From DASVDK01 sp036381125 [NCBI: Thermodesulfobacteriota bacterium] (lineage in GTDB: Bacteria; DASVDK01), in assembly GCA_036381125.1 (NCBI GenBank), contig DASVDK010000333.1:1-13082 (forward strand): 13,082 nt of DNA. The letters run 5' to 3'. The position numbers and the translations under genes were made by a program. Of this stretch, positions 9,278 through 11,874 are shown piece by piece. The notes beneath the pieces were generated by a model. It was not told the origin of the DNA. It saw only the letters and a program-made list of their open reading frames with translations, and searched no databases. The stretch's first letter is position 1; each line of letters begins with the position of its first letter.

Positions 9278-9601
9278 ATGAGCGACGACCTGGTGATGGT
9301 GGAGTGCCCGACCTGCGGCCGCCCCGGGGCGCTGCCGGTGAACAACCCGGCCGCCCGGACGCCGACGCGCGCCGATCACACCCGCTTCGTCCTCCTGCCG
9401 CCGCGCTACACCGTCCAGCAGGGAAGCTGCGACGCCTGCCCGCAGATGATCACCCTCAAGGCCACGTGCCACGGGAAGTACTTCTGCCGCAAGTGCAGCG
9501 AGGCGCCCTGCGACTGCACGCGCACGACGCCCGAGCCCGAGGAGGGGGCGACGGACCGGCCGGCGCCGACGCGTCCGGGCCTCCGGGTGGTCAAGAAGTA
9601 G
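9278..9601 (+). CDS. Small nine-cysteine, probably zinc-binding protein of unknown function
   Basis: I do not recognise this 107-residue protein. It has cysteines at 10, 13, 51, 54, 64, 70, 73, 78 and 80: a CPTC knuckle, a CDAC knuckle 37 residues later, then C-x5-C-x2-C-x4-C-x1-C with HGKYFCRKC in between, plus histidines 34 and 65. Two zinc-ribbon-like sites (10/13/51/54 and 64/70/73/78) are a reasonable inference. The tail is Pro/Thr-rich and ends in basic GLRVVKK. There is no signal peptide or membrane segment. AGGGGAGA (9266-9273) sits five bases before ATG 9278, a good ribosome-binding site. It starts ten bases after yraN, so it is probably the last gene of that transcript. Its 3' end overlaps the convergent CGNR gene by 11 bases. 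Nucleic-acid or rRNA contact is a guess from context. Confidence 0.8.
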   Translation: MSDDLVMVECPTCGRPGALPVNNPAARTPTRADHTRFVLLPPRYTVQQGSCDACPQMITLKATCHGKYFCRKCSEAPCDCTRTTPEPEEGATDRPAPTRPGLRVVKK

Positions 9602-10220
9602 CCGGCCGGGCGGCGGGCCGCTTCCGCCCGCCGGCGCGCGCGCGCCGGGCGAAGGCCGCCGCCTTCATCCGGTTGCCGCAGACCGCCATGCTGCACCAGC
9701 GCCGGCGGCCGGTGCGCGACGTGTCCAGGAAGTAGAGGACGCAGGCCGGGTGGCCGCAGCGACGCACGCGCGCCCGCTCTCCCGCCTCGATCACCTCCGC
9801 GGCCGCCCGGGCGATCCCCACCAGAGCCGACTCCGGGCCCTCGCGCCGCGGGACCACCCGCCGTCGGAACCCGCGGCCGGACGGCACGAGCGCCTCGCGC
9901 CCCTCGCCGACCGCGAGCGCCCCGTTCACCACCTCGATCCACTCCGGCGCGAGGGCGCGCCCCTCCGCGCGCGCGCCGAAGATCGCGCGCAGCGCCTCCC
10001 GCAGCCCCCTGGCGGCGGCGAGGGCGCCTGCCGCGCCCCTCGGGTCGGCCTCGGCCATCGCCCGAAGCCGCCGCGCCTCCTGCCGCGTCGCGCCGCCGGC
10101 GGCGACGAGGAACGCGATCAGGTCCTCGTAGCGGCGCAGGGTGTCGCCTGCGCCGTCCGGGGAGACCACGGTGTTCGCGAAGTCGACGGCGAGGTGATTG
10201 CCGGACAGGTAGAAGCGCAT
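9591..10220 (-). CDS. CGNR zinc-finger (ABATE-domain) putative stress-type regulator
   Basis: The 209-residue protein begins MRFYLSGNHLAVDFANTV, the usual opening of ABATE-domain proteins. That N-terminal domain runs to about residue 135. A C-terminal CGNR zinc finger follows: C155-x4-C160 ... W175-C176-x4-C181-G-N-R184, ending in a very basic Arg/Lys/Ala tail. The family is annotated as putative stress-induced transcription regulators, and the zinc finger plus basic tail suit nucleic-acid binding. The start ATG (10220-10218) is fixed by the conserved N-terminus, but no good Shine-Dalgarno sequence precedes it. The gene diverges from the VOC-PPOX pair, and the gap between them contains a large inverted repeat, so local regulation of those genes and of itself is a natural inference. 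It converges on the cysteine-rich gene with an 11-base tail overlap. Confidence 0.9.
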   Translation of the reverse strand: MRFYLSGNHLAVDFANTVVSPDGAGDTLRRYEDLIAFLVAAGGATRQEARRLRAMAEADPRGAAGALAAARGLREALRAIFGARAEGRALAPEWIEVVNGALAVGEGREALVPSGRGFRRRVVPRREGPESALVGIARAAAEVIEAGERARVRRCGHPACVLYFLDTSRTGRRRWCSMAVCGNRMKAAAFARRARAGGRKRPAARPATS

Positions 10221-10270
10221 GGCGCGGATGGTAGCGCGCGGCCGCTCGCGCGACGGACGCGGCGGCCGAT

Positions 10271-10300
10271 CTAACCTGTATAGTCTATTTGACAGGTTAG
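10271..10300. promoter_or_regulatory. Candidate operator: 9-bp inverted repeat in the divergent CGNR/VOC gap
   Basis: CTAACCTGT (10271-10279) and ACAGGTTAG (10292-10300) are perfect inverse complements separated by 12 bases, so the arm centres are 21 bp apart, two helical turns. A smaller palindrome ATAG-T-CTAT (10280-10288) sits at the centre. The site is notably AT-richer than its surroundings. Its right arm overlaps the TTGACA -35 element (10289-10294), as a repressor site would. The flanking CGNR protein is the obvious candidate ligand, by inference only. Confidence 0.7.
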
Positions 10301-10317
10301 TACCGGCGAGCTAGCGT
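10289..10317 (+). promoter_or_regulatory. Promoter of the VOC-PPOX pair, overlapping the operator
   Basis: A perfect -35 TTGACA (10289-10294), a 17-base spacer and a weak -10 TAGCGT (10312-10317) point toward the VOC gene. The predicted leader is about 60 bases. The weak -10 and the overlap with the inverted repeat fit a regulated promoter. No equally good promoter was found facing the CGNR gene. Confidence 0.55.
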
Positions 10318-10329
10318 GCTCCGCACGAG

Positions 10330-10367
10330 CCGGCCGGGTAGCCGGCCGCGAGCGGCCCGAGGGCCGC
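10330..10367 (+). other. Two hairpins in the VOC leader
   Basis: GCCGGC (10330-10335) can pair with GCCGGC (10341-10346), and GCGGCCC (10352-10358) pairs with GGGCCGC (10361-10367) around a two-base loop. They lie between the promoter and the ribosome-binding site AGGGGG (10370-10375). They could modulate translation or RNA stability, but such stems arise easily in this base composition. Confidence 0.3.
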
Positions 10368-10382
10368 GCAGGGGGTGTTCAC

Positions 10383-10847
10383 ATGAGCGACAGCGGAGCG
10401 CAGCGCCCCGTGCTTCGGACCGGGCACGTGGGGCTCAACGTCACCAATCTCGAGCGGTCGACCGCGTTCTACAGGACGGTCTTCGGCTTCGAGGTCGTCG
10501 ACCAGTCGACGGAAGCGGGCCGCCGGTTCGCGTTCCTGGGCGACGGGCGGACGGTGGTGCTGACCCTCTGGGAGCAGAGCGACGGTCGCTTCGACGCCGC
10601 GCGGCCCGGGCTGCACCACCTGTCGTTCCAGGCCCCGACGGTCGAGGAGGTGCGGGAAGCCGAGGCGCGGTTGCGGGCCCTCGGCGCCCGCTTCCGGTAC
10701 GACGGCATCGTCGCGCACCGCGAGGGGGCGTCGTCCGGCGGCATCTTCTTCGAGGACCCCGACGGCACGCGTCTCGAGATCTACGCGCCGGCCGGCGTCG
10801 CCGCGGAGGCCCCCGTGGCGGGAAGCCCGACCTGCGGCTTCTTCTAG
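10383..10847 (+). CDS. VOC (glyoxalase/dioxygenase fold) metalloprotein
   Basis: This 154-residue single-module member of the vicinal-oxygen-chelate superfamily contains GHVGLNVTNLERSTAFYRTVFGFEVV at the N-terminus, GLHHLSFQA in the middle and IFFEDPDGTRLEIYAP near the end. Likely metal ligands are H15, H79 and E132, the usual His/His/Glu set. The superfamily includes glyoxalases, extradiol dioxygenases and antibiotic-binding or modifying proteins; the substrate cannot be told from sequence alone. A tail of about 18 residues ends in PTCGFF, with the only cysteine near the terminus. ATG 10383 has AGGGGG seven bases upstream. It is first in a two-gene unit with the PPOX-fold protein (70-base gap) under the operator-bearing promoter, which suggests detoxification or stress use. 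Confidence 0.92.
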   Translation: MSDSGAQRPVLRTGHVGLNVTNLERSTAFYRTVFGFEVVDQSTEAGRRFAFLGDGRTVVLTLWEQSDGRFDAARPGLHHLSFQAPTVEEVREAEARLRALGARFRYDGIVAHREGASSGGIFFEDPDGTRLEIYAPAGVAAEAPVAGSPTCGFF

Positions 10848-10917: not shown

Positions 10918-11874
10918 ATGCCTTCCGCCTACCACGCCGGACAGCTCGAGGTGCAGGCGCGCGCCGGGGTGCGCGCCCGGGCGCGGCAGCTCGCCGGGAT
11001 CGTCCGGCCCGTCATCCCGCCGGTCGCGCAGGCGTTCCTGCGCGACCGGCGGGTCGTGTTCCTCGGAAGCGTCGAGCCGAACGGCCGGGTCTGGGCGTCG
11101 GCGCTGGCCGGCCCGCCAGGGTTCGCGCGCGCCGAGGACGAGCGCACGGTCCGGATCGACGCAAGCCCCGCGCCGGGCGACCCGCTCCTCGACGACGTGC
11201 GGGCAACCGGCCGGCTCGGCATGCTCGCGATCGAGTTCGCCGCCAGGCGCCGCATGCGGCTCGGCGGCCCGGCGCGCGTGGACGGCGAGGGAGGGCTCGT
11301 GCTCGAGACCGAGCGGGTCCTCGCGAACTGCCCGAAGTACATCCAGGCGCGCGACCTGGACGCCGAGGCGGCGGCACGCCGGGACTCGACCCCGAGCCCC
11401 CGGCGCGCCCCGGCCCTCTCCGACCGCCAGCGCGCCTGGATCGAAGGAGCCGACACCTTCTTCGTCGCCACGGCGCCGCCCGACGGCGGGGCCGACGTCT
11501 CGCACCGCGGCGGGCGGCCCGGCTTCGTACGGGTCGAGGGGCCGACCCGCGTGGTCTTCCCCGACTACCCGGGCAACAACATGTTCCTCACGCTCGGGAA
11601 CATCACGGCGAATCCCCGGGCGGGGCTCCTGTTCCTCGACTTCGAGGCCGGGGGGACGCTGCAGGTGACGGGACGAGCCCGCGTGAACTGGGACCCGGCG
11701 GCGGCTGCGGCGTTCCCGGGGGCGCAGCGCCTGGTCGAGTTCGACGTCGAGGAGGCGCTGGAGAGCGCGCTCCCCCGGCCGCTGCGGTGGCGGTTCCTCG
11801 GGTACTCGCCGTTCGACCCCGATCCGCCGCACGTCGCCTCGACCGGCGAGTCGGCCGATGGGCCGTCCGGGTGA
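10918..11874 (+). CDS. Two-domain pyridoxamine-phosphate-oxidase-fold flavoprotein (COG3576-like)
   Basis: The 318-residue protein contains two split-barrel flavin-binding-type domains. The N-terminal one (about 25-145) has FLRDRRVVFLGSVEPNGRVWASALAG and ends with ETERVLANCPKYIQARDL. The C-terminal one (about 170-300) has ADTFFVATAPPDGGADVSHRGGRPGFVRV, FPDYPGNNMFLTLGNITANPRAGLLFLDFE and LQVTGRARV. These blocks match the PPOX-like COG3576 type; FMN or F420 binding and a redox role are expected, but the substrate is unknown. It is not a vitamin B6 biosynthesis enzyme by architecture. The start ATG 10918 has AGGAG (10909-10913) four bases ahead. It follows the VOC gene by 70 bases on the same strand and converges on the phosphofructokinase gene with 52 bases between stops. 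Confidence 0.9.
   Translation: MPSAYHAGQLEVQARAGVRARARQLAGIVRPVIPPVAQAFLRDRRVVFLGSVEPNGRVWASALAGPPGFARAEDERTVRIDASPAPGDPLLDDVRATGRLGMLAIEFAARRRMRLGGPARVDGEGGLVLETERVLANCPKYIQARDLDAEAAARRDSTPSPRRAPALSDRQRAWIEGADTFFVATAPPDGGADVSHRGGRPGFVRVEGPTRVVFPDYPGNNMFLTLGNITANPRAGLLFLDFEAGGTLQVTGRARVNWDPAAAAAFPGAQRLVEFDVEEALESALPRPLRWRFLGYSPFDPDPPHVASTGESADGPSG

Follow-up and report, generated by a model that had tools for sequence, protein, structure and literature searches.

Known CGNR regulators and the locus

The closest described relatives of the regulator studied here are proteins that join an ABATE domain (PF07336), which Pfam labels a putative stress-induced regulator, to a CGNR zinc finger (PF11706). 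For one of them, Jann_2411 (PDB 3h0n), the available text of the structure paper proposes a probably dimeric, ligand-responsive transcription regulator, with a ligand that is not identified there (PMC2954205). In one transcriptome of Bordetella pertussis, as given in the available extract of its report, the CGNR gene bp3097 goes up between 4 and 8 h along with modA (bp3095) (PMC9976334), and this joint rise is compatible with the regulation by CGNR proteins that we propose below. A search of open-licence papers found no operator or DNA target for the CGNR family.

We analyze a window of 13,082 nucleotides (by window we mean the whole stretch of DNA) in which a CGNR gene diverges from the genes for a VOC and a PPOX protein. 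The features that matter here are

9591-10220, minus strand: gene of the CGNR regulator (Pfam PF07336 and PF11706, cysteines, predicted model)
10271-10300, no strand: candidate operator, with the core TAACC-N18-GGTTA at 10272-10299 and a flanking C on both arms
10289-10294, plus strand: TTGACA, proposed -35 of the VOC promoter, within the candidate operator (from the sequence; the same TTGACA-GGTTA junction is found in paired-site relatives and in locus L304)
10312-10317, plus strand: TAGCGT, a putative weak -10-like hexamer (3/6 matches, 17-bp spacer after TTGACA)
10383-10847, plus strand: VOC protein, proposed target gene 1 (Pfam PF00903, E-value 6e-20; alignment of 18)
10918-11874, plus strand: PPOX (PNPOx_N) protein, proposed target gene 2 (Pfam PF01243, E-value 2.4e-24; neighbor of VOC in 18/18 related cassettes)

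The regulator is an ABATE-CGNR protein by both domain cut-offs (ABATE at residues 8-145, PF07336 E-value 2.9e-20, 73.6 bits vs. 24.4; treble-clef zinc finger at residues 151-193, PF11706 E-value 3.2e-18, 65.7 bits vs. 24), by its four cysteines, and by its Jann_2411 (3h0n) fold. The zinc-finger residues C155, C160, C176 and C181, together with G182 and N183, are invariant in 29 sequences. The AlphaFold model (mean pLDDT 85.5) has a predicted helix at 178-197 that contains Ala191, and its best structural match is 3h0n (Z 9.2, rmsd 5.8 over 162 residues; rank 2 has Z 4.4), which is also the only sequence relative of solved structure that we found for this protein. The other structural matches of the predicted model have low Z, and we rejected them as unrelated. 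No CGNR relatives were found in phage records. In bacterial genomes, zf-CGNR genes above the family cut-off are present in 26 of 149 genomes in the phylum of an Acidobacteria locus, 18 of 41 in that of a Streptomyces locus, 17 of 150 in that of a Pseudomonas locus and 61 of 148 in that of an Eremiobacterota locus, where each of these samples includes the gene-bearing genome at its center, and in 4 of 199 genomes of the planctomycete phylum.

As for the two proposed targets, the VOC protein scores 72.3 bits against its Pfam profile (cut-off 20.6). In an alignment of 18 cassette VOC proteins, His15, His79, Glu132 and a C-terminal CGFF are invariant, and the first three are candidates for a metal triad. 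All 18 proteins end in P-x-C-G-F-F, an invariant C-terminal tail with a cysteine. The PPOX protein finds its best NCBIfam match in the MSMEG_1061-type PPOX flavoproteins (TIGR04025), yet at 99.5 bits it stays below the subfamily cut-off of 170, and it is longer (318 aa vs. a profile of 197 positions).

An inverted repeat in the divergent gap

The gap between the CGNR and VOC genes holds the inverted repeat CTAACCTGT-N12-ACAGGTTAG at 10271-10300. Just as the first-pass annotation had described it, its two 9-bp arms (10271-10279 and 10292-10300) are 100% complementary and 12 nt apart, with centers separated by 21 bp. The AT-rich patch and the overlap with TTGACA that were reported with it are also there: 19 of the 30 bases of the repeat are A or T in a gap that is otherwise GC-rich, and the ACA of the TTGACA at 10289-10294 is common to the right arm.

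How much weight should such a repeat carry? Taken alone it is weak evidence, because perfect 9-bp repeats with a spacer of 0-25 start at 28 positions of the GC-rich window, several of them nested inside longer repeats; most of the support comes from its conservation at other loci. The repeat at 10271-10300 is the sole one with more than 3 A/T bases per arm, and the pattern TAACC-N17..19-GGTTA occurs once in the window and in none of 200 dinucleotide shuffles (0/200). A degenerate second site lies at 10312-10340, 40 bp from the first and with mismatches at 3 of 10 positions, and its left arm coincides with the TAGCGT hexamer. A promoter scan of the window that required at least 4/6 matches per hexamer reported none.

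Conservation of the site upstream of CGNR genes

The first set of homologs consists of 80 loci, the best 80 of at least 198 relatives in one genome scan with the CGNR protein. Upstream of many of these CGNR genes there are repeats that have the arms TAACC and GGTTA in common. We counted exact pairs TAACC-N(d)-GGTTA, with d from 0 to 40, in the 400 bp upstream of CGNR, using the 80 loci and the window. We observe 67 of 71 pairs at 18 or 19 (22 with d = 18 and 45 with d = 19), which leaves 4 for the other spacings together, and the remaining 938 kb of the same 81 loci yields 15 exact pairs at d 18/19 and 5 at other spacings. An exact site with d 15-24 is found in 57/81 loci. Of the 15 sites remote from CGNR, 14 stand before or at the start of a neighboring gene as called automatically, and the fifteenth is in a convergent gap in L056. 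In every locus, 400 bp taken some 2.5 kb downstream contain no site with one mismatch or fewer, but this DNA is a weak control because it is probably mostly coding; the comparison between spacings is a better one.

The motif as first annotated stands in part. The core TAACC-N18/19-GGTTA is conserved, whereas the full 9-bp arms are not: the outer base and the inner TGT vary.

The count was extended to other collections. A search of the L002 phylum (Acidobacteria) with the zf-CGNR profile gave 26 counted genes, of which 12 have an exact site and 17 a site with at most one mismatch (L115 duplicates L002, and 4 of the 30 loci of this set, which have no protein match to the CGNR profile, are uncounted). 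In a pooled set, 182 of 183 distinct genes have enough upstream DNA, and if we call window-type those with a profile E-value < 1e-40, an exact site is found in 79 of 108 window-type genes and a site with at most one mismatch in 100. A further 52 genes include 23 of the window type, 13 with an exact site and 18 with one mismatch or fewer. For all distinct window-type CGNR genes the counts are 92/131 and 118/131. The other 13 of the 131 lack an 18/19 site at this tolerance; in L009 and L038 the site precedes a unit that is displaced, in L298 the spacing is 17, in L059 and L060 the sites have two mismatches, and eight others remain exceptions. On plasmids, 5 of 12 loci have an exact site and 6 a site with at most one mismatch, and an 18/19 site at that tolerance is missing in the other 6 (L161, L162, L163, L164, L165 and L170), although L163 has spacing 16 and L170 spacing 8.

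Exact sites occur in window-type loci of Acidobacteria, Proteobacteria, Actinomycetes, a cyanobacterium (L016), planctomycetes (L034, L080), Eremiobacterota (L025, L078), a Nitrospirae bin (L065) and a Methylacidiphilales bin (L037). The Deinococcus plasmid gene L159, a more distant CGNR, also has one. Because loci were picked by CGNR similarity, Streptomyces, Paraburkholderia and others are over-represented, and the counts are of genes, not of independent events. Loci L081-L099 were obtained by the pattern itself and are excluded from all gene counts. The same place appears twice in L115/L002, L222/L028 and L307/L008, and the plasmid and whole-genome site analysis re-examines genes of the first set.

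Because the site is conserved beside related regulator genes in several phyla, it very probably serves the regulator itself as a switch, and a large branch of CGNR (ABATE plus zf-CGNR) proteins very probably uses the core TAACC-N18-GGTTA of the window as its operator.

The site before VOC-PPOX cassettes

The first-pass annotation had read the locus as a circuit of CGNR regulator, operator and VOC gene, and had suggested looking for the repeat upstream of related cassettes. VOC and PPOX occur together in 18 of the 80 first-set loci (counted after tblastn, in the best 80 of at least 198 relatives), with VOC proteins 53-66% identical to that of the window. Upstream of VOC in these 18 cassettes the site is exact in 12, has one mismatch in 4 and two mismatches in 2 (L059, L060). 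A search of 296 genomes in the phylum of L028 (with Streptomyces at its center) found 8 VOC relatives at E ≤ 1e-25, and each of the 8 is accompanied by PPOX and by a CGNR match and has a site, exact in 5 and off by no more than one base in the rest (L222 is the same place as L028). Among 396 genomes in the phylum of L002 (Acidobacteria) there are five VOC places, three of them with CGNR and an exact site (L304, L305, L307). The other two are VOC-PPOX copies in a single genome (L306; L308 with L309), which have neither an exact nor a one-mismatch site, nor a CGNR gene in the stretch from 1.5 kb upstream of VOC to about 0.3 kb past it. In L308/L309 the VOC gene is split, and L308 has one two-mismatch match 198 bp upstream; the genome has four zf-CGNR genes elsewhere.

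When the arrangement changes, the site stays with the target. In L038, VOC-PPOX is 3.7 kb from CGNR, in L226 CGNR is downstream of PPOX, and in both the site remains before VOC. The core is present before VOC in 18/18 cassettes of the first set (two mismatches allowed), in 8/8 of the second search (one mismatch allowed) and, exactly, in 3/3 of the Acidobacteria cassettes that have a CGNR gene. A lack of conservation before related cassettes, named in the first-pass annotation as a refutation, is thus not what we see, and the result supports the circuit as it was annotated.

Paired sites, promoters and the proposed mechanism

Two or more sites are present in 68 of the 108 window-type genes of the pooled set. 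Start-to-start distances between sites (n = 74) concentrate at 40-43 bp (47 cases) and 52-57 bp (13 cases), near four and five helical turns. For the 61 loci with pairs 38-45 bp apart, we find a promoter-like match (at least 9/12) for the divergent gene in 36, compared with 1, 1, 9 and 0 of 61 for the same test at four shifted places, in a test that is post hoc since it was designed after seeing L304. In L304, 17 bp separate TTGACA from TATAAC, which stands where a second TAACC arm starts. The best 25 of the 36 promoter matches have a perfect TTGACA directly abutting one GGTTA, and the -10 overlaps the arm of the other site by at least 4 bases in 26 of the 36 loci, by 1 base in 6, and adjoins it in 4. 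This paired-site test replaces an earlier -10 test on single sites, which gave a weak peak at spacer 16 (7/27). The window has the same TTGACA-GGTTA junction as its paired-site relatives, but one clear site, a degenerate second one and a weak -10.

Since in the paired-site loci the target promoter largely coincides with the operator arms, the mechanism that fits best is repression, in which bound CGNR would keep RNA polymerase off the promoter. In our main reading, to which we assign a probability of about 0.8, CGNR would be an autoregulated repressor that sits as a dimer on 10271-10300, shuts both divergent promoters and is released by a ligand. The comparison shows that site and spacing are conserved, that sites lie near CGNR genes and that they covary with the protein; we infer binding, repression and ligand release as follows. 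A CGNR dimer would bind the palindrome with one zinc finger per TAACC/GGTTA half-site. The site covers the proposed -35 of VOC-PPOX and is about 50 bp before the CGNR start, so that binding would shut both promoters. A small molecule, perhaps related to the chemistry of VOC and PPOX, would act on the ABATE domain and release CGNR. Related circuits, with other enzymes as targets, may be in use across this branch of CGNR proteins.

Could CGNR bind the same site and do the opposite, activating VOC-PPOX from a position that overlaps the -35 while repressing only itself? Activators that touch RNA polymerase often sit near -40, and the center of the site is indeed near -40 (about 40 bp before) relative to the expected VOC transcription start, with a poor -10 in the window. 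We nevertheless find activation unlikely. A promoter that depends on an activator would have no need of a perfect -35, and the TTGACA within the site is perfect. Where relatives have paired sites, the -10 is for the most part covered or touched by the second one, and L305 has an exact site that spans GGAGG and ends 3 bases before an apparent ATG of VOC. Both positions suit blocking.

Which protein reads the site

The repressor reading gives the site to CGNR. A regulator other than CGNR could also read it, and such a partner gene, if common, could have been overlooked in loci that were chosen for CGNR, whose binding is itself a proposal here. Four observations speak for CGNR and make another reader quite improbable.

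One is location. The 12 whole genomes that we scanned (76.4 Mb, 31 zf-CGNR genes) have 35 exact sites, and a CGNR gene is no more than 1 kb away for 14 of them and no more than 6 kb away for 18. The genome-wide number is not above the control, which has 62 matches to the reversed pattern in the same 76.4 Mb; the site total is therefore not enriched, and nearness to CGNR alone is informative. The sites cluster at CGNR genes, and regulation is probably mostly local. In a Rhizobium locus (L041:4265-11675), one CGNR gene has five exact sites around it in about 5 kb, and these may form a small local regulon.

A second one is the wide variety of divergent neighbors. A Pfam scan of 75 of them, including that of the window, finds alpha/beta hydrolases (28, PF12697), glyoxalase/VOC proteins (15), alcohol dehydrogenases (6), nitronate monooxygenase (4), flavodoxin-like proteins (4) and others. 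The candidate operator is not confined to VOC cassettes. On the other side of CGNR and on its strand, many Streptomyces loci have a gene of about 1100-1160 aa, which in L028 (6665-10144) is a subtilase with a PPC domain.

In third place, the two VOC-PPOX copies seen without CGNR are also without an exact or one-mismatch site.

Finally, the base that flanks the half-site goes with the identity of one residue in the CGNR helix. At the position of Ala191, ten residues after the C of the CGNR motif, arginine goes with a flanking G and any other residue with a different base in 100 of 115 genes, which is the best of 352 residue splits; the window has Ala with flank C. The exceptions are 12 genes that have Arg but another flank and 3 that have G but no Arg. 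A ranking of 180 columns by mutual information puts this position third. In new genes, Arg goes with G in 4/5 and Tyr with a base other than G in 11/11, and two His genes have G. Tyr is found with flank C in the phylum of L011 (Pseudomonas; L207, L208, L215, L218) and in that of L002 (L105, L106, L127), and the latter phylum also has Arg with flank G (L109, L113, L128). When the tree is taken into account, Arg-G has 5 well-supported independent pairs, of which on average 4.0 agree and 0 oppose (median p 0.125), and for Tyr and flank C on average 1.8 agree and 0 oppose (median p 0.5). With five independent pairs only, the covariation falls short of significance by tree-independent pairs. The Ala191 position corresponds to Arg182 of Jann_2411, which the structure paper counts among the conserved basic residues with a suggested role in nucleic-acid binding (PMC2954205). 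That one zinc-finger residue predicts the flanking base in 100 of 115 genes points to CGNR itself as the reader.

Distant paralogues and other spacings

Outside the window type, the site becomes rare. Distant CGNR paralogues of the pooled set have it exactly in 4/74 cases and with at most one mismatch in 15/74, and among the further 52 genes none of 29 distant paralogues has a TAACC-N18/19-GGTTA site with one mismatch or fewer (0/29). In an exploratory screen, distant paralogues keep the half-sites but space them differently, at 17 and 9 in the L025 phylum, and also at 16, 8 and 0. Equally exploratory, and without a control, is the finding in distant paralogues of other half-sites in the same layout: TAACT, TAACG, TGACC, AACACC and TCATG. 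Upstream of some CGNR genes (L109, L116, L120, L168), the same half-sites form a contiguous palindrome, TAACCGGTTA, with no spacer. In the phylum of L025 (Eremiobacterota), zf-CGNR at E ≤ 0.001 is found in 62/148 genomes, some with two or three genes (L245-L273), and several of these have TAACC sites at spacing 17 or 9.

We think it rather likely that there is a protein-DNA code for a widespread class of regulators. Each clade of CGNR treble-clef repressors would have its own spacing between the TAACC-type half-sites that it reads (17, 18 or 19, and perhaps 8/9 or 16 in other clades), and one residue of the zinc-finger helix would choose the flanking base. Many target promoters would be two tandem operators about four helical turns apart, and distant paralogues would keep the layout but change the half-site.

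Two further explanations are hardly credible. The repeat might act as an RNA hairpin in a leader transcript, as the distant paralogues could suggest in that their two arms change together (in a screen that selected for palindromes), but an AT-rich loop of 12-19 would be closed by short arms of 5-9 bp, the promoter fit of the paired sites puts them at -35 and -10, and the window site would not be in the VOC transcript because it spans the proposed -35. As for a chance palindrome of a GC-rich genome, which the many 9-bp repeats of the window would allow, the absence of the core from the shuffles and its conservation elsewhere at a fixed spacing speak against it.

Comparison with known systems

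The structure of the CGNR family and the proposal of a role in regulation were known, and a divergent, self-regulated repressor circuit is ordinary. What would be new is the DNA-binding fold, the candidate operator and the protein-DNA code. A concrete operator would make target genes readable from the sequence (among the 75 neighbors, mostly hydrolases, VOC proteins and oxidoreductases). It is also directly testable, as it provides a ready gel-shift probe and a named residue (191) for swapping.

The window CGNR and Jann_2411 (PF07336 plus PF11706; PDB 3h0n) have in common the two domains, the four zinc cysteines and the overall fold. In its available text, the Jann_2411 paper names no DNA target and no specificity residue (PMC2954205), and here we propose a candidate operator, target units and a candidate residue.

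One-component repressors of the TetR and MarR type have divergent, self-regulated targets. Regulator and enzyme operon diverge in them from one palindromic operator that overlaps the promoter, as they do here. Unlike those repressors, CGNR has a treble-clef zinc finger and not a helix-turn-helix, and its half-sites are 23-24 bp apart from center to center. If our reading is true, a treble-clef finger, instead of a helix-turn-helix, would be the reader of a classic bacterial operator.
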